From Hirudo medicinalis (taxonomy: Eukaryota > Annelida > Clitellata > Hirudinida > Hirudinidae): a stretch of 64,000 nucleotides of DNA. The notes below the pieces were generated by a model. That model did no database searches and was not told the DNA's origin. It saw nothing but the letters and a program-made list of their open reading frames with translations. This document shows, piece after piece, positions 9,788-59,793 of this stretch (its first letter is position 1; the number at the start of each line of letters is the position of its first letter). A program made the translations under genes and the position numbers. The DNA lies in contig MPNW01000802.1 of assembly GCA_011800805.1 (NCBI GenBank), positions 13,790 through 77,789 on the forward strand. Direction: 5' to 3'.

Positions 9788-12700
9788 TCATTGATTGTAG
9801 TACACGTTCGTTAACATCTGTACTTGATTTTCAGTGAATTTATACAACTTTTTGTACTGATCCTGAAAAAACATGTTTAAACCTGTTTAAAATATTAATT
9901 TAAAAAAGAATATATCAAAAATCTGGTGCTGATTATTAGCCGAAGCCTATTAGTAGGTCACAATTTAATCTGATTCAACAAATTTTCAGAGCTTTTAATA
10001 TCTTCATATTTCTAAAAGCATTGTACCATACTATTAAGCAATTTCACTCGTATATTTATAAAGTCGATTGACAGCACTGTTAGATTGAAGGCACTTAGAA
10101 ATCATACCAGAGTGATGGAGTCAGTTACAGGCGTCCTTTTCAGTTCGAGTACAGTCCTGCAGACGTCGACGTACTTCCTGGAACTCAACTGCTCCGCCAG
10201 ATCACAGCAGGCAACGAAGTAACTTGCAAGAGGGGATTTATCTCTTTAAGCAAATTCATAATTATTAATATATGTTAATTTTATTGAACATTTAATATTT
10301 CTAATGAGGGCAAATCAAAGAATGTGAAGGAACTTAATGAGATATTACTGACGATAGCATTCATAGCATTCATGTTTTGTTCCAAATAAAAGAAAAACTA
10401 CTAACGGACTGAGAACAAATAGGTTATCAAACTGTCTGCTTTGATTCAACACATCAAGCTTTTGTTTCGCATGTTGAAATAATTCTTCACTAATGTGAGA
10501 TTCATGATCTGATCTGAGTTTCAAAACCTTTACAGGGATTTCTCTGCCCGCTGATGCCTGCCATTGTGATATTTTTTCTTTAAATATAAATTCAACATAT
10601 TCTTGAACACATTTAAATGACTTATTATCAAATTGATAAATACAAAATAAACAAATAGATATTACAAAATAAACAAATAGATAATTTAAAAAATTCAAAC
10701 AATGACGAAAAAATTTATTTCAAATTATTCATTGTAATCCAAATCTCTCTGGACAAATGCGAAAATCATGCCTATAGTGAAACACTTCAATTTTCAACTT
10801 AAAATTCTCAAATACTTTGTTTTCGTAGATATTCTCTTCTTCGACTTTCGATTTTATGCAAATTTCCAACAAAGTACCGAACTTGAGTACTTGTTGATCT
10901 CTGAGAAAGACACAGAAGTTGTCTGTGATGACTTGCTTGTCCGCTGTTGGAAGGAATTTTTGCTGCTCCCAAGTCTAAGTTTAGCAAATGTTTTGTTACT
11001 GAAGAGATAAACTATAGCAAGAATCTGTAAAAAATATTTATTTACTTATAAATCATTTATATAATAAATATAAAAATATTTAAATCTATTATTTAATAGA
11101 TTTAATAATTTGTCTAATTTGCTTTATTACTTTGAGATCTAGATTTACAATTTACAGTTCCTCTACTTCTGAATTTACGAAAATAAAATATTAATTTAAA
11201 TAACTTAATTCAATTAAAAATATTAATTTCTAAATTACAAAATTATTATATTAAATTAATAAATAATAAACGATAAATTATTTAATTATTAAACATCATA
11301 TAAAAACATTAATTTTAAAGACTTTAATTAATTTTCAAAGAATCTCTCTCCACATTGATGCCTGTCAATGTTTTGTAAAATATAAATCCAACCTCTCAAC
11401 ATTAAGCAATCAAGTTATTATATTTAGTGACAATTACCCTCAGATATTATACTTTTTAATTACCTTCAAGTTAGCAACAAGAACAACCAGGCATTTCGAA
11501 TGAAAGCAGAAGTTCCAAAAGTCAGCGACAGCATTTTCTTCCGGGTAGCAGCTGATGTGATGATGGTTCTTAGCCGTCATTCCCTGACATTCAACAATAC
11601 TTAATAATCACTCACTAATTTCTTCAACTTCTAGCAAACGCTGTTCTTCATTTTGTTTATTTTATGTTTTTTAATGAAATAGTATTAAATTCGAATGAAT
11701 AAATTCAATCAGACCATAAAAGAGGAGATCCACCATTGGTTGGATTTAAATTTCGTTTTGCCTGATAAAAATATTTGCAAATATTTATTTTGTAAAGGTT
11801 ACTAAGTTGAAGTTAATGTAGGAATAAACCTGATCATTTCGAAAGTCACGACTAATAATGTCAGTTAAACCGGAATAAAAAGATTTAAAGTTTAAAAAAA
11901 ATGCAATTTTTGTAAAGTACAAAATTATGAGTCAATTAAAGTACAAGATGCATTTTACAATATCAGTTTTTTGCATTTCCAATATCATATTTGTGGTAAT
12001 TCCTAAATCAAAGTTCAAATTTCAATTTACAGATGTTTGCAAATTTAAAGTATGAGAGTTTATCGTTAATTATATTAATACGTCTTTGTTTACCTCGCTT
12101 TTCCAAAAAACCGGCTTCTTCTTTGAGACACTGTTACAAAAAAAAGCTTCATTTCAAATCTCTGCTTGACGTGAAGAATTCAATTAATCTTTTGATTGAG
12201 TAATTAATCAAAAATAATTAATAATTAATCAATAATAATTATTAATTAATTTTCTCACGTGGAATTCGTCACTTATTTCGTTTCCTTCGTTCAGGACCAT
12301 AAAAGTTGAGTGGAACATGTCCATTGGAATGTCAGTATTTGATTTTGTGGTGGTGCATTTCAAGGCGTAATATATGAAGTCGTACTGAATCTGTCGAAAG
12401 GATATGTATGAATTTTTACTTAAGATCATATTTATTCAAATTGTTTTTTATCAAAAATAAAAATCCAGTACAAGTCAATAAAGCAATATTATATAAATAC
12501 ATTTTTTATTTAATCTTGAAATACAATCATTTTTGTTTTACAGGAAATCAATATATGTAAAATCGCAAAATAATTTCTTGTAATATAATATAACGCAATT
12601 TAAATACGACATCTTCAGATAGCCATTACTTAATAATATTGTATTAATAGTGCTGATATTGATAGTATTGATGTAGTATTAATAGTATTAATAATTGTAA

Positions 12701-15700
12701 ATAGTTGTCTTACAGCGGATTGAACCATGTTTGATCTTTGCTCTCTGAGCATGGAGACACAAGCAACAACGTCAATAGTTCCCTCACGTTTGGCTTCGTC
12801 CAACAAGAAGTCGATTGCTATGAAGCATCCTGTTCTCCCCACCCCAGCACTGCAATTAGTGGTGCAATTAGCTTCATTCTTTTTCTTATTTCATAATTTT
12901 ATTATGCCGAAGTCATTATATCGACAATGTGCTATTTAATCGGTCAATTACCATTTTACAACTGGACGAGTTGGTTTTTGTGTTGAACTCGTTATATTTT
13001 GTTCGAAATTATTGTAACACTGCATGGATTATATTTAAATAAAATAATTATTATAAAAACATTATTACGATATTACAAAAGTAACATTATAACAACAATA
13101 TTACAAAAAATAATATTACAAAAATATTATTACAAAAAATAATATTACAAAAATAACATTATAAAAATAATATTACAAAAATAATAAATAACTAGTATGC
13201 CTTCTGACCTGCAGTGAACAATCACAGCTTTATTCATGTCGGCATTTTTCATCGACACATTGTTGAACTTCATAAAGGAATCCACATTTGTTGGGACTCC
13301 GTGATCAGGCCAGCACATGTAATGCCATTGCATTACTGTTTTCGAATTTTTCTGATACTAAAAAAAAAATCAAGTTATTGTATTGTTATCAATTATTATG
13401 TCTTTGAAATTACAAATTATTAATTACTCCTGTGTCGGTTAAAGACACCCTTAATTCTCTCCTGATGTAATCTTCAAAATCAACTGATGATTCTAAAGTC
13501 ACAGTGTATTTTCCAAATTTTGCCTCGTATTCTTCAGGCCAGTATTGGAAGCATTTGTTCTGAATAAATTATTCGGTTGGCCTTTTCATCGTTTATGCCA
13601 AATAAACGTATTTAAGCAGAAATTGATGTGGTTAATTAAAGTTCAAAACATCGTAAATGTAACATTTTAAAATGGACCATTTTGTTTCTAAAAATAGAGC
13701 TTTTGAACACATGGATCCAATGATTTCATTTCCAAGAATGGCTTTATCATTAAGTTAGTAAATGCAGAAGTAACTATAATTGTAATCTTAAGTCCTGAAA
13801 GACCCTTACCTTACTTTTCTCCATTATCTGAGTCAGCATGACTATGTCACTGACATCTTGTTCAACAATCATCTGCCAAAACTGGCCAACTGTCTCATTA
13901 GTTGGGCCTAAAGTGGATGGTAATTAAATGAATTATTAATAATAAATAAGTTTTATTGAATTTTTTTTTTAATGACAATTTTTTTTTGTATCACGAATAA
14001 TAAGGTTCGATAATATTTTAATTCACCTTGGGCAGCTATGAATTTCTGTTTTCCAGTCTACAACACGACGATGCAATGAGATTGCAATAAATTATCCACT
14101 ACATGTTAATAGCAAATCATTATTTATTGTTATTCATTATCCATTACAGGCTAATTACTGATCATTACCGATTGTTTCCCATTAAAAATAAATTAAAGAT
14201 TTGAAAAAATTACGGAGCTATTTGTACGATAAACAAGGAATTGTTAAATCGTTCTTATATGATTTCAAACGATTTGGACTCCTCCGAATTAATCTCAATA
14301 AAAATAACCACAATCAAAACATAGCGCAATGACTAATAGGATGTCCTCACTTAGAACTAATACACAAAAATATATTGGATGAAAATACAAACATAAACAA
14401 GAAATAAGAGCAATCAAACAAAAACACCTCAATGTGACTGGCATTGATGTAATCGCTTTCTTTGTGGGACTCCTTCAAAACCACCCTGTTGTAGTCGTCT
14501 GCATTTGAGAAGTATGTCAACAGTTAGCTTTATTTATTTCTTAGTGAACAAATATATGTATGTCATAAATAATTAACAAATACATTAAATATTCGTTCAA
14601 ATGTGCCTTGACGTGGCCTCACATGGTATGATGTTGGTGAATCGGTTTTTTCCTTTTCCGGATGCCTTGCTTATGGACATGGAATAGGCTGCAATCTTTG
14701 GAATTTTCTGCAGAAAAACAATAAGAAATTGTCAAATTCGACCTATAAAGATTCTCTTTGTAATAAACACGTGCATTGGTTTATAGAATTATGTTTTTAT
14801 TTAAATGTCTGGAATAATCGTAAATTTGGATTTAATACCAGTGAAGGTTAGCTCCCAGGGAGCGCCCTCGGATAGGGGCACTATATAATTGGTTGGGCGA
14901 TTAAAAAGTGCCGCCACATCCTATTCGAATGCATGGTGCACTCAAAAATATCTGCTTTAAGCAATGCTTGAGGCATTTCTACAAAATGTTTAATCTATTG
15001 CTTCGCTAATAAATTAGTTTGGTAAGCTTATGAAAAATAAAGTTTTTACACATGCTTATTGGTAATTAATTAACAAATTCAAATAAACATTTGGATCTAA
15101 TTTAAATATTTACATCAAACTGTTCAGCAAATCCAGAGCTGTTTTTAGTCATCACATCCAGCATGTATGATGCAAGGTTCTCAATTTTTATCTTCGTGTC
15201 TTCTTTTCCTTCTTTGTTGCTTGCATTTTCTGACAAAACTTTGGCAGAATAACATAATAACAATAATAACATTACCCATAATAATAATTAATATTATTCA
15301 ATCATTGGTAAAATACCAAATAACATATTTTACATTTAAAATACAACGTCTCATATAAATTAACTTATTTCAATGTCAAGGTTGAGCCGTGAGAAATTCG
15401 AAAATTGTCTTATTGACTTTTGACAGCCTACCTATTTTCTCTGCGTCGACTGTTTTCTCTGCTTTTCTGTAAAAATAAAATATGAACCAATCTGATGTTG
15501 GAAAATAAAATTCACTCATAAAATAATCGTGCAAACCTTATTCGAGAAACATAGAAATACACGAGGAATCCGAACAATGCCAGAGCCAACAAAACCGCCA
15601 TTGTTACAAGAACAGCGACAACTGGATTGCTGGTTGCTGTAAGGTTGAGGTTAGGTTAGGGGTATGTTTAGTTTTATGTTAGTTGAGCTTGGATAAAGGT

Positions 15701-18700
15701 AAGGGTTAAGGTTACAGTAAGTGTTTAAAGATAGTAAATACTATCTTTTAGTACATTTTAGTACAGGGAATGTACTAAATTTCCTTGAAAATTATATTAA
15801 ATATATATTAACAATAAGCGATGTCTAATAATTAACAAGGTTGACATTTTTAATAATAAAAACATTGTCAAATGTTTAAAATAACTTCACAAAGTGTGGA
15901 AATAAATGAAAGCAAACATCTGTCTATATCATGCAATCGCATACACATACATGCAGTATCTTAAATACAAAACAGTGTCAAGCCCATCCAAGTTGAAACA
16001 ATTATATTTAGCCACAAATTATACTTATAAAAACTTATAGAAATGTTTTTAATTAGGTCTTTATGTTTGAATAGTTGAGGAAAGTATGCCAAAGTTTGAG
16101 CCATTATTAATCCATTTGATTTTTGACGCGCTGCGCGCACTTCCTCTTCCTTGTACATTTGTTTTGTCCGATGAACTGTTCATTATGAACATATCATTTC
16201 TAGCAAACATCTTTAAATCGATTGTTTGGTTTGTGGTGAAAAAAATGGATGATGTGTTTGGGTTTGTAAAGTGAAATTGATTTAAAAAGTAAGAGAGTAA
16301 ACGTATGCTAACCGATGAGAAGTTATTAATTATTGGTCATAAAAAGTTGTTTATTTATGCATTTCATTTTTGAGCATTTTTTAAATTAAATCTCAAAATT
16401 CAAGTGAATCACTTCGAAATCATGAAAATATAATTAAACGAACAATTGTTCAACTGTTGACAAGTGGAAATTTTCACATTTGTTGAATTTGATATTAAAT
16501 ATTTTAAATTGAAACATGCAAAGACAGTTAATATTCTTATTAATAAACTTGCCTACGCATCCCTGATTAGGATCGTCTTGGTAACCGTCCTTACAATGAC
16601 ATTTGAAACTTCCGAGTTCATTTACACAGTTCGTATTATTACCGCATTGATAATTTTCTGCGCTGCATTCGTCTAAGTCTGAAATTCATCTCTCTCGGTT
16701 TTATTGAATTGTCTTTTGCAAAACTTAAAACTTTTCGTTTTTAAACTAAATTGCCATTTACTTTAATATCCTTGATATAAATACATTGAAAACATGTTTC
16801 AACCAATGTTTCAATCAATACTTGCCTATGCATATCTGGTAAGGATCACCAGTGAAACCATCGTTACAATGACACTGGTAACTTCCAATGCTATTGGAGC
16901 AGTTGCTATTGCCAGCACAATTATTAGTACCATCGTTACATTCGTCTTTATCTGAAAAAGTTGTGGGTTTTCTAAAGTTATTTAAAGCTAGTTTTTCCAC
17001 AATTTCGACTTATTCATGTTTGCATGCCCAACATTTTGAATTGCAGTATGTTCATTGAAAATATTCAGTTTACAATCTTAATCTTGATTTAGCCATTTTA
17101 AAAAAGCTTGAAAAATATTATTATTAACGTGGGGATAATTAAGCAATTGTTTGTCATGAGAGATTTTTAGACCTTATAGGATGTTTATGATATCAGGCAG
17201 GAATCTAAAACAATCTTCCTTAATAGTAGCTTGGTTTAAACACCAGCTTATTTCGATTTAAAATATTAATAATAAAAATTATTTATTATCTCAAAACTTG
17301 CCTACACATCTCTGATTAGGATCGCCATAGAAACCTTCCTTACACAGACATTCATAACCTCCGTCCACATTCATGCAGTTCGTGTTAGTACCACAAGGAT
17401 AATCGCTTGTTCCGTTGCATTCATCCACATCTGAAATTCGTGGTTTTCGGTCACTTGCAAATTTATTTCAATTGTTTGAGTAGTATTATTGGTTTGTGCA
17501 CAGAATTTAGATTCTTTTTTTCTCATATCTTCTCAAAAAAAAATATTATGAAAACCCCAATAAAAATATTATTTGAGGTCGCATTACATCCTCGAAACTT
17601 GCCTAAACATCCGGTTCCAGAGTCATTTTGGTAACCACGATTACAACGGCATGCATAACTTCCGATCGTGTTTGTGCAGTTCTCATTATTACCGCACGAA
17701 TCATTTCTCTCTGAGCATTCATTAATGTCTGAAAATCATCGGATTAATTGTTTAGTTAGGTCGCTTTGAAGTTATACGAAAGAAAAAGTAATAAATAAAT
17801 TTAATTCGGCTGATAAGATCATTAAACTTGATGTATTAGTGTGGCTGAATGTGGCTCTCTTGAAACTCTTTAAATTCTTTTCAATCCCAATTTAGATGAA
17901 TTTTAAATGAGCACAATTAGAATAAGTGCCAGTTTTGCTATTGTGCTAAGACAATAATTGTGTTAAAAATAAAGTAATGTCAAATCTGGCACGTAATAAA
18001 AGAAGTTAAACTTAATGAAATAACACATTTGTGCCCAAATCCACATTTCCATTCTAATGTCCGGACTAATCGCAAGATTGCAGATGTGAATGTAAGAATT
18101 GTGTTAAATGTTGTTATATATAATTACTACAACAACATTAATCGCAAAACTTGCTTAGACATCCATCCACAGCATCATTTGCATAACCATCCATACAAAG
18201 ACATCCATAGCTTCCAACAGTATTAGTGCATTAGTCATTGTTACCGCAAGAATACCTATGTCTGAAAATCATCCGTGAGTTATTTAGAGATTTAGAGTTT
18301 TTCTGACTTTCCAGATTTTAAAATGAAACCTTAATTTGATGAAAAGAAGATTATTTGACTTTGCCTTTTCAAATTTTTTAAAACCTTTCGCATGCGAAAT
18401 TAAGTAACTTTTCAATTGCATTATTGAAATGAATGTCAGCTATTTTACCAACTAGTGTGAAAAGATTAAATCAACAAATATTGATCGATTGTCACATGCT
18501 AATAAATAAAGCATAATACATAATAAACAAAATGGTTAGAGAAGCTTCTGGAATAATGTGTCCATATCCATACACCGTTCTGATGCCCATTTCTAATAAG
18601 CTTACAAGTGCTTCATTGTTAAAATATCTTTCACAAAACTTGCCTACACATCCAACATCAGCTTCATTTCTGAAACCATCCCTACAATGACATTCATAAC

Positions 18701-21700
18701 TTCCAATTGTATTTGAACACTTTTCATTATTACTGCAAGGAAAATTTCCTTCTTCGCATTCAATTTTTATCTGAAAATCATTGAGACCTTCAGATTTCAG
18801 ATGCCAAGTAATTTATAATAAAAAAAACTTTGAACTCTGAACATTCTGCTCAGCAGAACAATTTCTTGCAATGTTGTGTTTGTACTTGTTGTTTATTGTT
18901 TATGAAAATTGGTGAGACTGTGGAATTCCAATTAAGAACCAAATTGTATTCGACTTGTTACTTAATTACTTAATTACTTGATTACTTAATCAAAGCATGT
19001 CAAAGGAAAGGAATCGAGAACCTGACGCTGTGCATAAGGCGCCATATAAATGAACTATTATTATTATTAACAACGTCACGATTACTCAATGAGGCATTAT
19101 CTTCAGTTTATCATGACAAGTGAAGTCGGATTGTACATTTGCTTTTTGCTTCGATTATTTAAATAAATGTAAAGTTTCGAATAAACACATGAACCAATAT
19201 TCAAGGCCAAAATACAGACAAATACATAATTAAATTCTACAAACTAATAATCTACTATAACATAATATACAATAAAGTAATAATCTCTACAAACTTGATA
19301 AATTAACCCGAATGAAAAATAACTTGCCTACACATCCTTTGCCGGGACTTTCTTTAATAAAGCCATTGTGACACGTGCACGCGTAACTTCCAATGTTGTT
19401 GGTGCAATTGGCATTATCACCACAAAGATCACTTGTTTCCCTGCATTCGTCAACATCTGAAGTTCGTTTTTATTTGGCGTTAAATGATTTATTTAATTAC
19501 GTGGATGTTGTTATGTGTCGAACATAAGAGCTTCAATCAGAATCGGAATTGTTTGAAGCTTAGGTAAGTAAATGTTGAATAAAATATATTTACCTGATCA
19601 TATTACTTCAAATTATTGTGCAACAAATGTAACAAAAAAAACAACTTTATAACTGACCTTGACATAGTCCATAATGATTGTCTTTAAAGCCATTGTGACA
19701 CCGGCATGAATAACTGCCAATGTTATTCGTGCAGTCCGAATTATTGCCACATGGATTTATTTTTCTTTTGCATTCATCAATATCTGAAAAGTCATTAATA
19801 TTTAACATCGAATTTATGAAATGAGTGATAATCATTACAAAACCTAACCTCGTCACAATGCACTATTTAATCAAATAAACCAATTTGACGAGACAAAACC
19901 CTTTTGAATAAATATGCAACACTAAATAATCATTCAAAGATGCGATTTTAAGAAATTAAAGGTTTAAAGAATTTATTAATCTAAAATTGCTTGAAATGTA
20001 ACGTCAATAATAGAAAGACCCAGAGCGGATTGGCCCATCGGGAAACCGGGAGTTTTCTTGTGGAACATGCGTAAAATAATACAAGTGTTCAAGTAACAAC
20101 CGAAAATTTTGACTTAATCTGTCAATCTTAACCAATGTTTGCCATCTTGAATAATAATTACTTATTTATTTCTTTGATTAAAGTCCTTTGCACATCTGAG
20201 TTGATTTGGACTAAATAGTAATTACGACGTTGTCGTCTTAATAACCTTCGGTAAAACCATTCGATATTACCGACAATTATGAAGGTGTCGGTAGCTGATT
20301 AAGGCTTTCGCTTCGGTGAGGCTCCGCTAGGAATTCAAATCCCAGCCGCTCGCAAGAGTATAACTAATATGAAGATAGGATCATTTTCATAATTAGTTTT
20401 TTTTTGTTTTTGTTTAACTAACACAGAAATAGAAGCCTTGAAAGTTTATTGTCTGGATCTTGGAACTAGAGTTAGAACTCTCACGTTTACATGAACTAGA
20501 AGAGAGGGGACACGTTATCAATTGTTCATTCACACGACACCAGTTTGCCTCTCATCTTACGTCTCAAAGGAAGCTGGAAGGATGGAAGTTGCCGCCCCTA
20601 GCTCTCTTAGGCTGTGACACTTTTAATCTAGAACACTTTGGGGAGTTTTGAGGACGGAGTGAAACACGACTGGATAAGTGTTGGTTATTCGAAGGGGGGT
20701 ATCTATTCCAGATGTGCGGGCCAACAACATCTATAGACCTGCCATCCAGTGCCGCACGTCGGGCATATGAATTGACGGGGGAGCCCCTGGTTGCTGATCC
20801 GAGCCAGTGCCTACCATTGATATGTGCTGCGCGAGTGAAAGGCAGTCATGACGATGCTTGACCTAGGAGAGACTTGAAAATGAGTGAACAAATTTGTTGA
20901 TATCTCATGAGAAAGACGATTTCAACAGACGACCTCGTTAAGAATCTCGCAAAATATGCCACTGTATATTATAAATTATTTGTATGCTAATGCTAAATGC
21001 TGGAAGCTTTTTTCACTATCTAAAGCTTAACAATTCATAAAACCCTTAAGAATATTCCATTACATGCTCAGGTCCACTCACATACTCATCCAAACCTAAG
21101 GAAGTAGCCTTTGGACATTATTTCATTTGCATTTCGGTTATGTTTGTGTCTTAGTTTTGTTTGCATGTTTTTGCTAAGCATAAAACAAATAAAATAATAT
21201 TACTGTAACACTAACATCATTCACTCTGAAGCATATTTTATGTCATTTTTGGTTTTATTCCGAGTACAATTATATTGTAAATCAAATTATATTTATATTG
21301 GTAGACTGTAGAATAACTGCTGGAAATATAATAAAATATGACTTCAATGTATGGGTATCGCCCTTCCCTGCATTTCCCGGTATAGATTTATCTGCCAGTC
21401 CGCCACAGGAAAGACCATTGGAAGAAATCACATTGTCACATATCAGCACAAAATATATTGTTTTAACAATGAAGATATTATCATCAAATAAATAAATATT
21501 ATTTATTAGTTTATCTATTTCTAGCTTTTTTAAACCGGCTTCGTCAGTGATTCATCCCAATATTACCTAAGTCCTTCAAATATAGCCAGTTACCTGCCCT
21601 CAGAGAACTGGGCGATTAGAATGGAGCTCCCGCAACGTGACTCGAACCCGTGCTGCCATCCTGAGAGGCGAGGTCTCATGAGACCATGCGGGAGCATGCG

Positions 21701-41000: not shown

Positions 41001-44000
41001 TTTAAATTCCACAATAATTAACTACAAATATTATTATTACTATTATTATCATTTTTATTACAATTAACAAAACATTTTCACAACATAAAAGTGCCGGAGT
41101 CGGTAGGACAGGCTGCTACATCGCCATCGACAGTCTCCTGGAGGAAGCATCCAAGACTGGTTTTGTCGATGTTGTCAGTTGCATCCACAATTTGAGACAA
41201 CAGAGACCCTTCTTGGTCCAAACATTGGTTGGCAGTCTTGTAAATGTGTTTATCTAAGGTTATGATTATATAAGGCTAATTACTGTTAATCACTAATTGG
41301 TTAATTGATTAAATCTTGTGATTCTGATTATAAATTTTAAGTAAGACTTTATTTTACGATTAACCTAAATTACTTAAATGTAAATCTTTAGCTTGCAAGT
41401 TATTAACCGAAACAATTATTTTGTAATTCCGATCAATATGTTAATTGTTCGCCAATATAAATAAATAATTTGCAATTAACCAATAAGTTAATTTACACAG
41501 GAGCAGTACCAGTTCATCTACAAAGTCCTGAGGGCCTCCAAAACCTGGACTGACACTTGCATCAGCCTTCGAAACTTTCATGAAGAATTCTTAAGGAGAA
41601 CAATCAAAACGGATTCACAATCGCACACCCTGCTGCAAGATGAATTTTTGGTAATTAAGTAATTACCAAATAATTAACTAAATATCAAATGAATTTATGC
41701 TAATTAAGTACTCTTAAGAACTGTTGTAAATATTTGTATTTGAATTCAATTGAATTTATTTATATCAAAATTCATTTCGATGCTTTATTTAGAAATTATA
41801 TTGCTATTTCTTAAATTAATGGTTCGAAATAAATTTAAGTTTAGTTATTAATAAATACTATTATTTGATTATTGACATAATAAATGTCATTTATCAATTT
41901 TTATATTATTTTAAAAATTTATTTTATTCGTAATTGTTTCTGCAGAAACTCAGGAATCAACTTCCAGTCCGAGAAGAGGATATTTGTGAGAGAAGGATTT
42001 GCTTTTCACATTTGAAGCAAATAACAGCTTCCTGAATTTAGCAAAAAATATATTTTTACTGACGAGTATAAGTTGATTGATTATAATTATCAGTTAACCA
42101 AGTAAACTTGTTCATAATTAATTCTTGAACAATTGAATTTAGTAAATAATTTTAACAAACTTGATCATAAATACCTGTTTAGCACTCACTGAAATGTTGT
42201 TGAGACCAAGCAGAAGAGTCTTTAAAGCAGTCAAAATTCACGTAAATGTCTTCATTCGTCATCTTATTTCTCATCTGACTTGATTCCATTTTCAGCTTGA
42301 TTCTATTATTAATTATCACATTAATTAATAATAATTAACTTATCACATTTCTAATTATAATTAATAATAATTAATTTATTACATTTCATGACATCATCAT
42401 TCTAATCTTTAATTTGTCAGGGTTACAGTAACGAGAGTCAATTCGTAGTCGGTAATTACCCTGAAGATTGGGACATTGAAAGTTTTTGGGATTTGGTGGA
42501 TAAAGATAAATGCTTGGTTCTTTTGATCGATCACAATGGGGTAATTCAGTAATTTATAAAATGTGCCTCATTATTAGTAGTATAATGATCGGTGTAATCA
42601 CTGAAAGTAATGATTATAATTGTAAATTATTTATCCGATAATTTTAAGTTTAATTTGTTAAATGAATTATATTTTCATTCATTTTTTAATCGATATCTCA
42701 CTGATGTCTATGCATTCAGAATACTGCTCCAATCTCCACAATTTGCAACAATTTATAAACTAAACATAATTACATCCCAGTCAACTTATTTACTAATTAT
42801 ACCATTACCATTAATTTATAATAATTAATATAATTATTTATAATAATTAATATAATTTTTTATAATAATTAATATAATTTTTTATAATAATTAATATAAT
42901 TATTTATAATTATTTATAATAACTAATATAATTATTTATAATTATTATTTATAATTATTCAGGAAAGTCATCCACCCTTCCTCCCCAGCTCCTCAAAGCC
43001 ACTCCGCCTCAACAACTTTTACATCGAACTGGAAAGCATCGAGAGCTACAAGTTTGGACCAATTCTCCGGGTCAACTTGACCAACACCTGCTTTCTGGCC
43101 GACCACACCTACGAGAATGTTCAATTTTTTATGTTGCAAGTTGTTGTATATTAATATAGAATTAGTTGGCGACTAATGTTAGCAGTAGTTGCACTTATTA
43201 AATTGAAATTTTATTATGTAATTAATTTTATTACCCACTATTCCTGTCGGCTTTCTACTAAGTGAATCCTGAGCGCCTTGCATTGCCCTCAACAATTCAT
43301 TATTTTGCATTTTTCGCAAAACATGGCCCAACAAGGAGATATTTTTAAATCTCATGATAAAGTGATATTATTTCTAGATAAATAATATTAGTTTGTTTAA
43401 CGATTTATAACTTTTATTTACAAAATAATTAGAGATCAAATGCACCAGCAGACTAATCCAAATTCATGGATCAAATTTTAAAGCCAAACATTGAAATCAC
43501 AACAGGCAAAAATAAATTGCAAAAACTAATTATTAGGGATATCCATTAAATAACATAATAATAATAATAATAAGTTATCATTGTCAACTCCTTAGGCTGA
43601 AAGTCTGACAGTTCCAAAAGGTCGCAAGCGAAGGTACACAGTGATGCACGCTTCTTCCCCAACTGGCCTGTTCCTCACTTGGAACTTCTTCTGCGAAATC
43701 AAACAATTTGTCGAGATGTTGGCAACCGAGGATCAGATGCCAATTGTTTTCGTTGCTGGAAGGTTGGTGCTTGATGGTTAATTTTAAGTTAATTTTATGT
43801 TTTAACAGGTAAATTGTTTTAGGGTATTGTTTTTGCATTGTAATTAACAATTAACAACTTATTAATAACGTAGTTAATTGTATTTTAGTAATAATGTATA
43901 GCAATGAGACTAACGCTTTTTTTTGTATATTTCTAATAATTACCTTAGTAGTTCATAGTAATTGATTTTCGAAAGTTGAAAGGGTTGTCACAAATAACAT

Positions 44001-47960: not shown

Positions 47961-48691
47961 GTAGAGGCTCTCTGAAACTGCCGCTTTTTGATTCTTTTGA
48001 TCCTAATTTTGATTGTTTTGCCTCTGCTGTTCCAAACATTCGAAATTCACTCATAATCAGAGATTATGTTGTCTCTGAGAACATCAGTCATGAATTCATC
48101 CTTTCGACGACCTGTCACGGAGAAAATTTCCATCAATCCACGTTAGGGTTAGGGTCATTCGAAGACAAGGAACCCATTGTCAAAGTTGAAGAAAAAAAAA
48201 GTAACTTTTTCCTGACCGTTCGGCATGACACTGGACTGGATGGACACGACTCTCAGGAATTTTTGCTCCTCTAGATATTCCAAACGCTGCGCTACGATTA
48301 TTCGCACTTCTGTTGGTCAACAGGCCGTATCTCCGAAGAACCACAACAATCTCTCACCTTTGTGTGACAGCTGCCAAGGTGCGTGAAAGGGTCTGCATTG
48401 TTTACCTTCTGTTCTTTCCGACGAGTCCTCAAATTAATTAAATTCTCAGAATTCCCAGAAACATCAAAGAGCAGATGCTTTCGGAAACAAATGCATTTAA
48501 ATCACTTCTCTATCTCAAATTTATCTGAAGTTGTGACGACGAGACTAAACGTTAAAATCGAAATGTTTGTAACTCATCCTCAGTTTCTCCCCTTTAATAA
48601 TCTCACAGTCCTAAACGGAATGTAAGGGACACAAAATGGTCACAGAAATAGTGAGACTGACGCAAAAACCGCAAGCGATCGTAGCAGCAGC

Positions 48692-48875
<184 letters not shown>

Positions 48876-49236: not shown

Positions 49237-52200
49237 ATGTCCATCAGCTTCGACAGGTCGTCCAAGTGCTACAAAGCTGGTGAATTAATGAATGGACAAG
49301 TGGAAATGACAAGCGGTCTCTTCAAGAGTGGAGTTCAAGGTTGGAGTGATTACTTTTTGCATTCAAAATCTAATGTTTGATTATTTATGTCAATAATATT
49401 ATGCTAATATTATGTTAATTAGAAATAAATATTGTGTTAATATTGTGTTAATAACAATAATTATTATGTTAATGTTATGTGAATATTAAGTCAACAATGT
49501 CACTGTTCAACATTCGCTGATGTGATTAAACGATATTTTCAAGGTTAAATTGTAATGATTTTAAAGTGCACGCAAGACAAATCATTTAAAAAAATCTAAC
49601 TGAATTTGAAAATAATTATTTACATTTAAATGAATAAGAATTAGAAAATAAGTACTTCCTTGAAATGATACCAATTATCGAGGTTATTATAATCAATTAT
49701 TATTATATAACTATGTATTGTAATGTAACAATTGCATTAACAAATTATGTAATAGATTATTAGCCAATGATTCGCATTACCAAGGAACAAATACTCCACA
49801 GACTTGTACCTCAGGATCAGCGGAGTAGCGGAGGTCAAATTCTTCGACAACGAAACCAAACTCGAATTCATCAACAAAAGCGTCGTAGTCGACGAATCGA
49901 TTCTCATTTTCAGCCTCAATTCTCACAACAACGACCAGCCAAACAGTGGCCCAGCAGTACAGCACATTCAGTGCATCAACTGCCCTAGCATTATCTTTCA
50001 GTACAGACTCGGTGGGAATTTGCCAGCATCGTCTACGGGTTCTCAGGCTAGGGTATCCTACTACGCCCAGTTGACTGCCTCTTACAAGACCGAGGACAGG
50101 GATTCTGAACTTGGAAGCAGAGAGGTCTTCTGTGTTCTAGCTGAACTTGATCTTAATCTTTTGCCTGAGGTTTTCAAAGTGAGTGAACAGACTGAACAAA
50201 GGGTGTTTATGTATGTAAATAGTGAATCATTGTGAGGAGTTTTTTGTTTTGTTTTTAACAACCATGGTCTCTAAACAAATGTTTATTTAAGCAACTGTTG
50301 TTTTTCTGTATTACAAATGCATGCCGTAACTAATTATTATTGTTAACTATTAATATCAGTAACTGATATTATAATAAATATTAATAAATTACTAAAAACT
50401 GTTCATTTATACTGGTTATTTAAGATTATGTTCATTATTTCCAATTTACTTGGCGTGCAGGGATTCCTGCACACGTCGGCAATGGCAACAGTCGTGTCGT
50501 GTTCGAAACCCAGCCTGCACTGCCACAAGCACCCTTTGGAAGGAGCGCTATATAAATGGTTAATAAAAAGCGTCTCAGCATCCAAACCTGTTCGAACACA
50601 AACTCCTTCTCATCCAGAAAATCTTTTGAAATGAAAACAATTTAGAAATCGATGGATTATATTTCCTGGGTTGATTTTCAACTTCTATTGTTCCCTGACA
50701 AATTGTCCGCTGGTCGTAAAACTTAAATTCTTCGTATTTCTTTCAAGATTTTGCAAAAACATTTTTCTTCATTCTTTATGAGTGGATCTGAGAGGCTTGG
50801 AAGGTGTGAAAGTAGAAATGAAAGAAATTATTGAATGTTTTCATTGTTTTATGACGAACCAACTTTATATGAGTTGTAAAATTTTTGTTTTCTATTGATT
50901 TGAATATCGAACAAGTGATTTTGCAAAGGATATGTGGTGATTTTATTCATATCACAGAAAATATTTAAAATAAATCCATAAACATCCACAAACATCGCTT
51001 AAAAATTATAAAATTTGTTAAATAAAAACTATGTTTCGGAAAAGGAACACATTTTTAAAAGAACGTCACGGAATGCAACAGAAAATTAATTGAAAGAGAC
51101 AATTGTTTATTTTCAAAAATATTTTCTTAGTAAAAATATCTTACTAAAATTGATTTCACAATGTTTAACTTCTGTCAACATCATCATCAGCATCAATATC
51201 ATCATCATTAGCAGCAGCAGCATAACTTATCTACCAACATAGTAGATCCCCAAATTGTAAAAGGTTTTTTTTATTCAAACTTGACTTTCAAAGAAGCAAC
51301 AACATCCCCTGACTTTATGAAAGTGTCTGAAATCGATGATAGTAGTGTAATAGGGAATCCTTCCTCTAATGAAGCAGTTTGTCTAAACATTTGCATTCCA
51401 AACCATGGATTGCTGTTTATATCATTTAGCATAGATTCTTTAACAGATATGATAATTTTTAAGAAATAAAAATAACGTGGTGTGATTAAGTATTATTTAT
51501 TTAACTAAATGCTTCAAAATATCAAGAGTTGCCGAAGCCTTTTTGTGTACATCTGCCAAGTAAATGACCACAAGAAAGTACATTCAACAAACTAATTCAC
51601 AATATTAATTCAAAAGAGAGACAACATTTTTCCTGTTTTCCTGACATTGCAAAGTTAAAGTTTAGAGTAAAAGTGTTGGTTAATAAATGGTTGAAGTCTT
51701 CCCAAATGTTTAGGTTAAAATCGATCCACAATTGCAAGCTTCAATTCGAGAAAATCCTGCCATTCAATGCTTTTATTTTTCAATAAATTTTTTCAAAAAC
51801 CTTTTAGAAGCGCGTTCCCATTAAAAGCTGAACTGAGCCTATTATTTTGAAAACACAAAAAAATTCCTAGCCAATGCACAGGTGAAATGGCGTCTAAACG
51901 AACAGTTGAGAGCACTTTTAAGATGCAATTGAAGAACAGCCAACAAAATGGCTAATGATTTCCAACTGGAATGTATTTAAGAAATTAATTTGAAAAATAT
52001 TTAAAGTGCTATATTGCTGTAGCTAACTCATAGCTGAACCCTGAGGCTATGAGGATTTCAATCCTAGAATCGATAAGTTCAGAATAGATGAGCATCTCGA
52101 TTAGCGCAGTGGGTTGCATTCCGGCACGCGACGGTGAAAGCAAGAAGCCATTGTGGGGCATATAACCCAGGCTACACCGCCAAAAAGCACCCTCTTGAAG

Positions 52201-55200
52201 GTACTCTAAGAGAATGGCAGAGAGATTAGTAAATTCTTCGTATCTGATTCGCACACCTGAGGCATTCAAAGGATTGGCTAAAGAAAAATCATAAGACACC
52301 AGGACTGAATTTAATGAATTTAGCGGCCAAACTGGTTTTCAGAGGACATATTTTCCAATACTTTTGAAATAATTTCAAATATTTCATTGAATATCACACT
52401 AACGACATGATGTAATGTTACACCAGACTTGAATTTATATTATTATTATTATTATTATTACTACCATTATTTTATTTAAATTATTTGACCAAGTATTCAT
52501 GTTAATCATCAACAAAATGTGTAATAGTGAAAATATGATCAGTGGTATTTGTCAAAAAAGTTGAACCAAATCAATAACAATTGTCCATGTTTTTTTGCAT
52601 CCAACCCACCTACAATTGTAATTTGGAAAGAATTTATCCTTAAAAATTGTACTTTCTTTCTTCACTTTCAATTTTCAGTCACTAAAATTTGATGTAATAT
52701 TTTTTTGTAATGCTCAGTAAATTCTAAAATTTCATTACACGTAATTAAACAAACGTCAATTTTTTTTTAAATCAGAAAACGCAGTTGCCGATTAATTCGC
52801 AGCAATTTCAACTTGAATTAAACATTCTCAAATAAACAATTGTATAAGAATAATTTTCAAAAAAAAGAATTTTTAAATTTTCTAAATCTTCTTATTTTCC
52901 TCCCCAAACACAGGATCCATATCCGATCCTATTCAGATTCACAAACAAACGCAGAAATCCAGCTTTTCCACTGGCACTGTTGCTGGAGAGGAGATGTTTC
53001 ACACCTGGAGAAGTGATTAGAATACTGGAAGGAAGACTTGCCAAGGTCATCCTGAAATACGCCCAGGTCATCAAGGTAGGTCCAGCTTTCTTTAGTGAAT
53101 TAGGTTTATGAGTTTGTTTTAGATATTATTTGTTAGAAAAAATTAGCATATCATTTAACTGTTATGAATGTTGTGATTGCTCATTGTTAACACCGTACAT
53201 TTTATCACTGATCGTTATTGTGAATACTGTTGATAAGAATAATGGACTGGTTACAATGGATTTAATTAATTCCCACAAGCCAAAACTTAAAAAAAACCAT
53301 ATATATTAAATAAGATATTTTAAATTGATGCTTGACCATAAAAACTCAATGAAGCTCTTACATTTCCCTACAAAAGGAAGTCACGTGTTCAGGACACCAC
53401 AAGGGTACCTCAAAACAAATGACCCAAGAAGAACAAGTAATAAGAGAGGTTCACAACCTGGTTTCTTATTCAGGGCAAGCCCTCCTGACCCTACCCAAAG
53501 ATTTGACCCCAACATCGAAATGTCCTTGTTGCACTCTCGTTTACACAAGCTATCGTTTAGAAGTGAGATTTCTATAAGTTCTTCTGTGAATGTTTCGGAA
53601 TTTATCGGAGTTCAGAATCTGAATTTTTTGGACTGCTTAGAAACTCACAGCTAATTGTTGTTAAGATTAACTTTTACATTTGCATTGAATTAATTAATAA
53701 TTTAGTAATATAATTAACATAATACATTTGCATTAAATTAATTAATAATTTATTAATAACATTAAATCGCACATTAAAATATAAAACATTGAAATTAAAG
53801 TGAAAAAAATATTTTTGAACGTGTATTTTGAAAAGTCCGCACAGATACATCGCTGTCGTGAAATTCGTTTGTTGCAACGAAAAGGTTTGCAAATGCTTGG
53901 ATAAAAATCTTTTTACTTTCAAAAAATTTTCTGTCATTATTGTTGATCCTTTCGTGGCTGATATGTTTTGTTGGAATTCAAAAACCATGAAAGGAAACCA
54001 GCTTTTAAAATTCTGAAGACAGGTTTTTGTCTTAAATCCGAAAATTTAAATTTTTAGTTTTAAATGGACCAATCTGGAATTTTATTACATCAGTGTAGTA
54101 ATAGTGAACTTGTTGAACTGTGACATTAAATCACGTTATTTCGTTCGTTCAAAACGATGTCTTTACGGTAGCTTCAATGTCAAAAACAACCAGTCAAGAG
54201 AATCAATTCTACTTTAACTTTTCCCGCCTATTCCAGGTTGCCATAGAATGCGACAAATCGATCTACGAGACCAAACTCGGAATCGTCATCGGAACCTTAC
54301 AACTGAAGCAGGCGACATCAAGTGGCTGTTCTTCGTTGGTGCCATTTCTCGAAAAGGCCTCAAAGTTAGGCAGGAAATCATCAGACGTTTCAATAAATTC
54401 CATTCCCTCATTTCCAACCCATCTCTCCCCGATTGAGGAGATGGAGGACCGACCAGAGAGGAACGATTACTTCGTCTCGGACAAGGCAAACAGCATCGCC
54501 AGAATGGCAGATGATCATTCCAGAAGCACCTACCTGACGACTTCCTTTAAAACTCTCGTGTTGCTGGCAATTGCAGCCTCTTTCGTCATGCCTTTAACGG
54601 GAATACCTGCTATTTTACTAGCCAGTAAGTCTTTTGCCTTGAATTTCAACATTTTGTATCGTCAAGCGCGAAAAAAATTAATTCTTCAGAATAAGAGTCA
54701 TTAAAATCAACAAACACGTCAGAAACACGTTCGTTCCAAACAATCGCCAAACATAATTTTAACAAATTTCATTCCAACAGTTTTGCAATATTTATAATTA
54801 GATTTTTTTTTTATAAATTTGCAAGAATCTGGTTTCTCTCCTTCAAGCGTTAGAATTATTACAAGCCAACAAACGTTGTGCTTGTCTACTTATGTTCTCA
54901 ATCAGTAATAATGAGGATCAGTGAGCGTAATAATTAATCAATTTATTATAATAACTATGCAATTTCGAAAATTTATTTGATATCGAATACGAATTATCTT
55001 AAATAAAATTTATTTGGTGTTGGATTGGGCGGCCGAGAAAGCTGGCAGACAATTTACTGCGGCGCGGCAGATGACACCTTTCATTGGAATCTTTAACCCA
55101 TTGTTGCCAAGAACAAAAGGTTTTATATGCCCATTACAGAAGGGACAATACTACAGTCGATATTCTATGACGGCACATTACAAGGATATTAATTAAAACG

Positions 55201-56074
55201 TGTCTGACGGCAATAATAACAATAATAATAATTACTTGATGACGTAAATGTGTTGAAAAAAGAGAGAGAGAGATGAGGTTGAAATACAAAGATCTGCAGA
55301 TAGAAATTTCTAGAATGTGGAATGTCAAGACAAAAGTGATAGCAGTTGTAGTTGGAGCCTTAGGAACTATGAGTGACAATTTTAATAAGGAAATTGAGTT
55401 GATACCCGGAAAGCCGAGTGCTGAAGATTTTCAAAACATTGCATTGAATGGGACTGCACATGTTCTAAGGAAAGTACTTGGTTGATAGAAGAACTGACAT
55501 CGAAAGGACAAACGTTTTTGTTGGTGTTAATTAAATTTAATTTTTTAACTCTGTTTGTAATTAAGATATTTCATTCATTTCCATTTATTATTATTGTTTG
55601 TTTTTGATTTTTTTTTTATTGTCTGAGGTCTCTGGATGAGACTTGGCAATCATTTTATCCGGCTGCAATACATCCGTGTTTGAATTTGAATAAAATAATA
55701 ATAATAATATAACATATGTTATTTTGTTTACATTGCATTCTCTGTGATTTTGATTTCTGTTTCAGAAATTAATGAGATCAGTTGGCTTTCATACCGGTTA
55801 ATTGATTAATTTAAAACCAACTGACCTCGAATTAATGGATGAAACTTTGATAAATATTTAATCCAATGCAAAGTAATTCAAGCCATTTAAGCTTAATTTA
55901 TTGAAATAAGCTTTTGGTTTTCTAATTTTTGCAGTCTTGTCGAAGAAGTCCAAAAGCGGGAAAAGGGCCTATTACTTCCTGAGGATATCCTATGGTTTCG
56001 CTCTTTCTTCCTTTCTCGTCTTCTTCGTAGTGGCGGCAGCTCTGCCAGGCCTGCTCATCGGATTTTTTGGCTGA
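49237..56074 (+). CDS. Arrestin-domain protein with C-terminal two-helix membrane hairpin (CD225/dispanin-like)
   Basis: Six exons join in frame: 49237-49339, 49802-50178, 52914-53075, 53377-53562, 54237-54624, 55935-56074, giving 451 residues. Arrestin N-domain: MSISFDRSSKCYKAGELMNG, then LYLRISGVAEVKF and FQYRLGGNLPASS. Arrestin C-domain: LLLERRCFTPGEVIRI, TLPKDLTPTSKCPCC, and KLGIVIGTLQL, which corresponds to the LPLVIGTIPL strand of alpha-arrestins (ARRDC/TXNIP). The same exon continues through a Ser/Pro/acidic linker of about 80 residues into helix 1 (TLVLLAIAASFVMPLTGIPA, about residues 382-405). The last exon gives a basic loop (SKKSKSGKRAYYFLRIS) and helix 2 (about 427-450) ending IGFFG. 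PLTGIPAI plus the short basic loop resemble CD225/dispanin (IFITM/PRRT) hairpins; this is my inference. No PPxY motif, which ARRDCs use to recruit NEDD4 ligases, is visible. A membrane-tethered trafficking adaptor is the likely role. The ATG at 49237 is chosen because no ATG lies in frame upstream in the exon; a further 5' exon is possible. Confidence 0.8.
50448..50574 (+). mobile_element. tRNA-derived SINE copy in arrestin-type intron 2
   Basis: It reads GTGTTCGAAACCCAGCCTGC (B box), ACTGCCACAAGCACCC and GGAGCGCTATATAAATGG. Similar over about 100 bases to the minus-strand copy at 24530-24700; the A-box part is damaged. Intron 2 (50179-52913) otherwise contains short CAT/CAG runs near 51180-51225 and no exon that I can support. 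Confidence 0.75.
52083..52212 (+). mobile_element. Diverged tRNA-derived SINE copy
   Basis: The head reads CTCGATTAGCGCAGTGGGTT (A box), and the body reads ACCCAGGCTACACCGCC then AAAAGCACCCTCTTGAAGG, matching the order of the other copies. The B box and the CTATATAA tail are eroded, so it is an older insertion in the same intron. Confidence 0.6.
55261..55485 (+). mobile_element. LINE C-terminal fragment in arrestin-type intron 5
   Basis: The open frame starts within RLKYKDLQIEISRMW and reads VVVGALGTMSD, then NIALNGTAHVLRKVLG. The K-Y-x-D-L, V-V-x-G-A-L-G and G-T-A-x-x-L-R-K-V-L pattern is the conserved end of many animal LINE polyproteins. Only this tail remains; the reverse transcriptase is absent. 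An adjacent frame at 55014-55196 shows no motif I recognise. Confidence 0.7.
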
Positions 56075-57511: not shown

Positions 57512-59793
57512 TTACATCGGAGTGGCTTTTCCAAAGAAAACTCCGGACGGATTGATGTCGACGGTGAAAAGGTCCGCAGGTTTGAAGTTCCCGATCTTGC
57601 GGCCGCTGAAGACCTCCGAGATCTGGTATCCTTCCGGCTTCAAGAAGTTGAGGGCACTCAGTTTGACCGAGAACCTCTGGGGAGTTTCATCGCCAGAGTT
57701 GAGGAATGCAAATCCAAAGGCTCCTTCCGGCAACAAAGGACGCGTCCAGACTTGAATGTTGCCTTGCTGGTTTGATCATGATATTGATCGAGTTGACAAA
57801 AATAACAATCCATTGACTAATTAATATGTTAATCTTAACCGGTTATCAATAATAGTATAATAAATAATTTAACCCAAATAAAAAATTTACCTGCAATATC
57901 CTCTTCCCTGGTTGTCCCATCTTATCCTGATTGATAGCGATGGCTCCTTCGTTGAGCAGAATCTCCCTCGAGGAAGGCCTGATGGTGGTGAGGTTGACCG
58001 ACATCACAAGAGGGGAAGGCATGAGGCTCCAAATGGCCATCTGGGCTCTCTCCTGGTCGTGGCTGAGCCCGAAGTTCCCGATAATAAGCTGCGAACAATG
58101 AACGGGATAAGCTTCTAGGACTCGCAAACATCATCGCATTCATTACAAACGAACGTGCCAGACCGACCGACCATGTCCGCGTCGTAGAAGCTTCCCGGTC
58201 CGACGACTTTGGTGAAGTTGGTTCTGTCCTCTCCTTCGCAGTTGATGATGCTGATGAGACTCTCCCAGGAGTCGTCGATGTCGCGACAATTCCTGAACGT
58301 GTTGCAGTGCTTGGCGATCATCACATAGTCGGGCTGTCGAAAAATTGGTCAATTGAATTGAAGTGAAGAAATAATTGATTTACAATAAGCTAACATTCTT
58401 CTGGGCATATTCCTGATAGCAAGGCCAGTCGCAGTGGTAGACCATGGGTCGTCCGGTCTTGTTCAAATATCTACCCATTTCTGGGTAGGCTAAAATTAAT
58501 TTTGGCGTTTGGAAATGTATCTTTTAACAAATTCTAATTCTAATGTTAAATTGCAAACAGGATATTTTGATTTTTAAGTTATTTGGCCGTTTGATTTCTA
58601 ACGAAATTGTTACAAGTTAATTATGTTAATGACATAACATTATACATGTTAATATATGTTAAAACATGTCATATGTTAATGAAAAGGTTATAAATAAATT
58701 TAATACCTAATGTTGGCACTAAAACAAAACTTCAAAAATATAAACAATGTCATAAAAATTGACAGAATAATGAGAAATCTGAAAAATCAAAATATCATCT
58801 CCCAATAAAACCAGAAATTAACCAACAAAACACTGACTAATCTCCACACGTTAACTCACAATTCACAAACATTTTTTACTAAAATAAAATAATCCTTGGC
58901 ATAGGCCAATCAACCTCCTTCGGAGACAAGAAACAAACCCAGGTGGTATTTATCCATGTCGTAGTAGCACCCGTCCAACTTCAGAAAGTCCACCGTCCAC
59001 TCGGCAAAGGTTTTGGCGTCCTTCTCGAAATGGAACTCGGAACCAGGAAACCCTGCGCAAGACATGTGTCCGATGTCGGAATAAATGCCAAACTTCAGTC
59101 CTTTGCTGTGGATCTAGAGAATGTATCGATTACTGTATAATTTAGTGTCTGCAGAACTGCCCAAGTAATGAAGAATTTCTTTAAATTAAGAGTTATTATT
59201 ATGATTAATGTTTTGATATAGTTACAGGGTTTATTAATTACATCATAATCCTAAAAAATTTCTTGTTATTGGCAAAGTAACACAATTGCCTTTAGAATGT
59301 TATTACTAAATACTTCAATTTCATCAGAATCCCCTTACATCCTAATTAAAATTAAACTCAATAATCCACAAAATTTCAGCCAGCTTACATAATCAGCCAG
59401 CTTTTTAATTCCATTGGGAAATCTCTTTAGATCAGCTTGAAGTCTGTCGTTGGCATCTCTTGTTGGTGCTTGCCAGCAGTCATCGATCATCAGGTAATTG
59501 TAGCCAGCTGCCAAGTAGCCTCCCTTCACCATTTCGTCTGCTGTTCTCATGAACAGCCATTCACTGAAAGTTTAGAATATCATTTGCACTGCATTTTTCA
59601 AATTAATTGCAATTGAATTTTAGTTGCACTCATCTTCTCACCTTATGCAGTCGTCTGGGTAGTTATCGCAGTCCACTGTGCATCTGTATCGTTCCCAACT
59701 CAACCACCCCATCAAAGGAGTTCTACCCAAACCGTTGTCGAGGGCAGAAGCAAAACAAACAAGAAGCAAACCCACACATGTCACAGATAACAT
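57512..59793 (-). CDS. Lysosomal alpha-galactosidase / alpha-N-acetylgalactosaminidase family (GH27)
   Basis: A retaining glycosidase that removes terminal alpha-galactose or alpha-GalNAc from glycolipids and glycoproteins, normally in lysosomes. The first exon (59642-59793) has a signal peptide ([17 protein letters not shown]) and the family start [18 protein letters not shown]. Later exons carry YLMIDDCW (59400-59560), [16 protein letters not shown] and the nucleophile motif KLDGCYYD (58910-59117), CDWPCY (58400-58490), NCRDIDDSW and [10 protein letters not shown] (58157-58335), [19 protein letters not shown] (57891-58094), and the C-terminal beta domain ending [10 protein letters not shown] (57512-57775). 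Both catalytic Asp residues (in KLDGC and in YDADM) are present. The substrate-selecting loop is CDWPCY, matching neither CEWPLY of human GLA nor CSWPAY of NAGA, so specificity is open. An upstream in-frame ATG at 59838 would add 15 residues before the signal peptide and seems less likely. Confidence 0.92.

Follow-up and report, generated by a model that had tools for sequence, protein, structure and literature searches.

Research on arrestins has mostly dealt with soluble forms, for which being recruited to the membrane is the step under regulation, and a gene of the leech Hirudo medicinalis raises the question of whether an arrestin may instead be a fixed part of the membrane. The gene lies at 49237-56074 on the forward strand of the window, by which we mean the whole stretch of 64,000 nucleotides analyzed here. 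Judging from the sequence, it probably encodes a protein of the ARRDC/alpha-arrestin type that is held on the membrane by its C-terminus. If true, such a tail-fixed arrestin would uncouple cargo recognition from recruitment, which is testable by ordinary cell biology.

Spliced together, six exons on the forward strand make up 451 codons and a stop codon, and GT...AG borders are present on all five introns in the splice-model translation; the phase-consistent frame of the initial annotation was found as described, with every coordinate in place. From the frame and the Pfam matches, the arrestin N domain starts in exon 1 (49237-49339; residues 1-34) and is completed by exon 2 (49802-50178; residues 35-160), and the arrestin C domain starts in exon 3 (52914-53075; residues 161-214), continuing in exon 4 (53377-53562; residues 215-276). 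Exon 5 (54237-54624; residues 277-405) encodes the last arrestin strands, a polar linker and a first hydrophobic segment, and exon 6 (55935-56074; residues 406-451 plus the stop) a basic loop, SKKSKSGKR, and a second hydrophobic segment. Two splice signals are poor: GTTGGA, at which intron 1 begins, and ACAAAAG, the acceptor for exon 4; an alternative junction between exons 3 and 4 (53079/53381) also yields 451 codons, with one residue altered. Enumeration of nearby splice sites showed that the earlier junctions allow a number of variants that keep the frame, and the last junction was 54624/55935 in every variant among those listed, a second enumeration having held that junction fixed. GC content is 0.446-0.493 across all six exons versus 0.229-0.311 in the introns, so that GC-rich exons alternate with AT-rich introns. 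Codon bias, scored after training on 1,074 codons only, provides weak support: in five exons (1, 2, 3, 5, and 6) the coding frame had the best score of the three forward frames, in exon 4 it had the lowest (0.052 versus 0.158 and 0.177), and at least one antisense frame outscored it in exons 1, 3, 4, and 6.

By profile similarity, residues 1-298 are a divergent two-domain arrestin with the N and C domains in order. The arrestin fold that had been claimed is supported by both Pfam domains scoring above their cut-offs: Arrestin_N reached 28.9 bits (cut-off 24.9) over two stretches, the best of which, residues 2-54, aligns to positions 2-53 only of the 148 in the profile, and Arrestin_C reached 32.8 bits (cut-off 27.7), with residues 184-297 aligned to positions 11-135 of 137. 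When the whole protein was searched, no other Pfam domain rose above its cut-off, LDB19 matching the arrestin part below the LDB19 cut-off, and NCBIfam returned no match. The core is considered divergent because a phmmer search of PDB sequences did not bring up any arrestin at E-values up to 10. PPxY, LPxY, and P(S/T)AP motifs are absent across the 451 residues, in line with the earlier statement that PPxY is missing. The accompanying view of PPxY as a rule for alpha-arrestins is true for many members, although human ARRDC5 and some fly alpha-arrestins are described without it in passages of PMC10945707. Since ARRDC5 lacks the motif as well, its absence is not in itself novel.

What sets the protein apart is its C-terminus. 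A polar linker of approximately 75 residues (about 299-375) separates the arrestin core from segment 1, approximately 26 residues at about 382-407 (TLVLLAIAASFVMPLTGIPAILLAIL), which is followed by the loop SKKSKSGKRAYYFL, containing five K/R and no D/E, and by segment 2 (about 422-451; RISYGFALSSFLVFFVVAAALPGLLIGFFG), which extends to the C-terminus. KD values averaged over 19 residues exceed 1.6 in two stretches, within residues 376-409 (peak 2.13) and 420-451 (peak 2.59), whereas the highest-scoring window in the arrestin core reaches 1.20 only. On the other scales, the GES peak and the octanol sum are 2.10 and -7.1 for segment 1, and 2.41 and -12.1 for segment 2. When residues 299-451 were shuffled 5000 times, 323 of the shuffles also had two KD segments, and for the whole protein the figure was 1489 of 5000, so two such segments by themselves are not rare at this composition; a peak as high as the observed one came up 29 and 70 times, respectively. 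Models for TcpE, DUF6044, and a pilin-like protein matched the hairpin, each below its own cut-off. Overall, the combination that had been proposed, an arrestin with a C-terminal two-segment hairpin and a basic loop, is supported by the Pfam matches, the hydropathy and the charge of the loop.

How such a tail would sit in the membrane is constrained by its charges, as the positive-inside rule predicts that a basic loop should remain cytosolic. Because the arrestin core must be cytosolic and the basic loop prefers the cytosol, we suggest that segment 1 most likely loops into the membrane and emerges on the face it came from, as a re-entrant segment, and that segment 2 would cross the membrane. 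Segment 2 may do so as a tail anchor inserted post-translationally; the tail-anchor class is defined by a single C-terminal segment with none earlier, and here segment 2 is C-terminal and segment 1 precedes it. The other topology, in which both segments are transmembrane helices and the loop lies outside the cytosol (an N-in, C-in hairpin), is possible, though we lean against it. It would also keep the arrestin in the cytosol, and both segments are strongly hydrophobic on the KD, GES, and octanol scales; however, the positive charge of the loop, which has five basic residues and not one acidic residue, opposes transfer according to the positive-inside rule, and the center of segment 1, where P395, G398, and P400 form a P-x-x-G-x-P pattern, fits a bend. 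The re-entrant arrangement that we prefer is that of IFITMs, described in passages of PMC9716219 as type II proteins in which one segment is intramembrane and the other transmembrane, and therefore the tail may act like an IFITM anchor without membership of that family.

Whether the hairpin truly belongs to the arrestin has different answers for its two halves. The last arrestin strand (GIVIGTLQL), the linker and segment 1 lie within one uninterrupted exon, 54237-54624, as had been noted. Searches of a 5.8-billion-protein set with the exon 5 open reading frame yielded one relative, P0001, among 165 candidates, identical at 171 of 175 residues (98%). P0001 differs at four positions, two of them within exon 5 and the other two in intron sequence that the frame reads through, and four changes do not suffice to test for selection. 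Its contigs reach 2.28 Mb, against 123 kb for the contig that carries the window, so P0001 probably comes from another assembly. Because P0001 has the same arrangement, the joining of the last strand to segment 1 is unlikely to be an error of assembly; exon 6 lies outside the reach of P0001. Presence in relatives, which the initial annotation had proposed to look for, is shown for exon 5 only, in this one near-identical sequence. With the full protein as query, 7991 candidates from the same set were scored and none had an E-value of 0.001 or below; with the 80-residue hairpin there were 13 candidates, none at an E-value of 10 or below. The argument that the fusion is not an artifact of joined neighboring genes therefore stands for segment 1, by virtue of the shared exon and its presence in P0001, while for segment 2 splicing to the predicted exon 6 is suggested by splice signals, phase and composition.

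These signals are favorable. The junction 54624/55935 joins a donor, CCA/GTAAGT, to an acceptor, TTTTTGCAG, both near consensus, in phase 1 and where segment 1 ends, and the GC content of exon 6 is 0.493 versus 0.311 in intron 5. Among 959 windows of 138 bases taken from the locus, approximately 22 (2.3%) had a GC content of at least 0.49, and of 857 stop-free 45-codon windows with a GC content of at least 0.47 outside the exons of this gene, one had a KD peak of at least 2.4; these figures are a rough guide, as the windows overlap and may extend to the margins of exons or into further genes. It is nevertheless conceivable, though unlikely, that the main form of the protein is soluble or single-anchored, exon 6 being rare or false and the protein ending after or before segment 1 through a retained intron or a different 3' exon. 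The reading frame, 54117-54701, stays open for approximately 25 codons beyond the exon 5 donor, and likewise in P0001, which would allow such a form; the near-consensus splice sites, the matching phases and the exon-like GC content of exon 6 speak against it. Without exon 6, the frame would end in ...ILLASKSFALNFNILYRQARKKLILQNKSH, and a protein ending after exon 5 would retain one hydrophobic segment, because segment 1 lies inside that exon.

An accidental open frame in a decaying arrestin copy would account for domain scores as low as 29 and 33 bits, for the failure of phmmer to find a solved arrestin up to an E-value of 10 and for the two weak splice signals, but we regard decay as very improbable given six in-phase open exons with GT-AG borders, two domains above curated cut-offs, an exon-intron GC contrast in every exon and an exon 5 that is also open in P0001.

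The most improbable of the readings is that the tail, which the initial annotation had likened to CD225/dispanin hairpins, is a true hairpin of this family fused to an arrestin and conferring IFITM-like membrane activity; this reading is set aside because the hairpin has no Pfam match, scores within the range of its shuffles and lacks three conserved motifs. The GIPA string, which resembles the way the first CD225 segment ends, counts in its favor. So do the two hydrophobic segments, the K/R-rich loop and the intron between the segments, all found in dispanins according to passages of PMC3282796; the loop and the intron are not specific to them. The most conserved dispanin motifs given there are G-D, A-X6-A in the loop and C-C in the first segment (PMC3282796), and vertebrate IFITM genes are described as having two exons in passages of PMC3499546. 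By contrast, the leech hairpin has no sequence match to dispanins and none of these three motifs: G-D, C-C, C-F-C, and A-X6-A are all absent, and no cysteine occurs beyond residue 307. Pfam returned no CD225 match up to an E-value of 10, in a search whose HMMER filters discard most weak matches. We also built a CD225 profile from 80 bacterial loci, of which 23 mycobacterial ones were dropped, using 56 distinct sequences. Against this profile, the hairpin scored 2.6 bits, less than 3 of its 200 shuffles (best 5.0), while left-out members scored 112.7-133.7 bits; these were 14 sequences (every fourth of the 56) whose near relatives stayed in the model, making the control an easy one. The full protein scored -0.3 bits against this profile, which is bacterial, such that a very distant eukaryotic dispanin could escape it. 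No CD225 match was obtained in the leech's own genome, but 14 control genomes were equally silent and introns split the domain, so this search is uninformative.

If the protein is instead a membrane-held arrestin with a tail of another kind, as we prefer, it appears to be a singular one in its genome. The full protein, searched against the 133 Mb assembly of 1557 contigs, found itself and nothing else up to an E-value of 10, and the hairpin found itself and one match on C1439 only. This match (31% identity, E-value 0.6) falls within a short, AT-rich reading frame and was taken as chance. Divergent paralogs may be missed, because six-frame Pfam searches overlooked even this gene. Those searches pointed to ten other arrestin loci, some of them below cut-off (C334, C260, C1027, C7, two on C18, C37, C1020, C1032, and C380, the last near a contig end). 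PPxY is present in the tail frame of four of the ten, C1027, C7, and both on C18, the tails read being those of these four, C334, and C260; judging from a motif in their frames, C37 and C1032 look like beta-arrestins. C334 has a polar tail without PPxY up to the end of its reading frame, which may not be the end of the gene, and in C260, a partial gene model, the frame following the last strand contains no strongly hydrophobic segment. As far as tails were surveyed, the hairpin is an exception among the arrestins of its own genome.

With the alpha-arrestins (ARRDC1-5, TXNIP, and the yeast ARTs), the leech protein shares the order of Arrestin_N, Arrestin_C and a non-arrestin tail, but PPxY is missing from its tail, which carries a pair of hydrophobic segments. 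Adaptors such as Ndfip1/2 and Bsd2, which serve NEDD4/Rsp5 and are embedded in the membrane, embody a similar idea of an adaptor fixed in place; they carry PPxY and have no arrestin fold. Passages of PMC2699828 and PMC10945707 describe alpha-arrestins with PPxY tails or with none and do not mention membrane segments. In amoebae, the Adc arrestins of Dictyostelium and Entamoeba have FYVE or C2 domains beside the core, according to passages of PMC2699828; they resemble the leech protein in pairing an arrestin core with its own membrane-targeting module, which in their case is a folded lipid-binding domain, whereas insertion into the membrane is proposed here. These FYVE and C2 proteins thus already provide examples of arrestins to which a membrane-targeting part has been added. 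A narrowly worded search of open-licence texts found no paper on an arrestin with a CD225/dispanin or C-terminal transmembrane part or on one fixed in the membrane, and as far as can be seen an arrestin with an integral membrane tail is new.

In such a protein, the core would bind the cytosolic tails of neighboring receptors or transporters. As PPxY is lacking, this cargo might be sorted or retained without direct recruitment of a NEDD4 ligase, or the protein might pair with the soluble PPxY arrestins of its own genome. We judge the chances evenly balanced that the leech lineage, perhaps the annelid lineage, evolved an obligatory integral-membrane arrestin whose hairpin arose independently; a soluble adaptor that has to be recruited would thereby have become a resident of the membrane, acting in cis and without PPxY-dependent ubiquitination.

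Several other features were observed around the gene and elsewhere in the genome. A long TAG/AGT trinucleotide repeat occupies 48690-48875, approximately 360 bases upstream of the start codon. Intron 5 contains an open frame at 55243-55482 (+) ending in ...GALGTMSDNFNKEIELIPGKPSAEDFQNIALNGTAHVLRKVLG, with no Pfam match at an E-value of 0.01; its end resembles the C-terminal part of reverse transcriptases from non-LTR retrotransposons. Downstream, exons of the alpha-galactosidase A family (Melibiase_2, 69.8 and 78.8 bits) lie at 57849-59571 (-), convergent with the arrestin gene. Protein-tyrosine phosphatase domains at 12633-12890 (-; 59.5 bits) and 41018-41254 (+; 44.7 bits), on opposite strands, and an EGF-like exon at 18495-18812 (-) possibly represent two receptor-type phosphatase genes. 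Genome-wide, two families known to mark leeches and annelids point to a leech: antistasin domains gave 90 matches at E-values up to 0.1, all 90 above cut-off and clustered (on C189, C620, C36, C1178, and others), as expected for leech anticoagulant gene families, and erythrocruorin linker domains gave seven matches on C142 and C550, six of them above cut-off.
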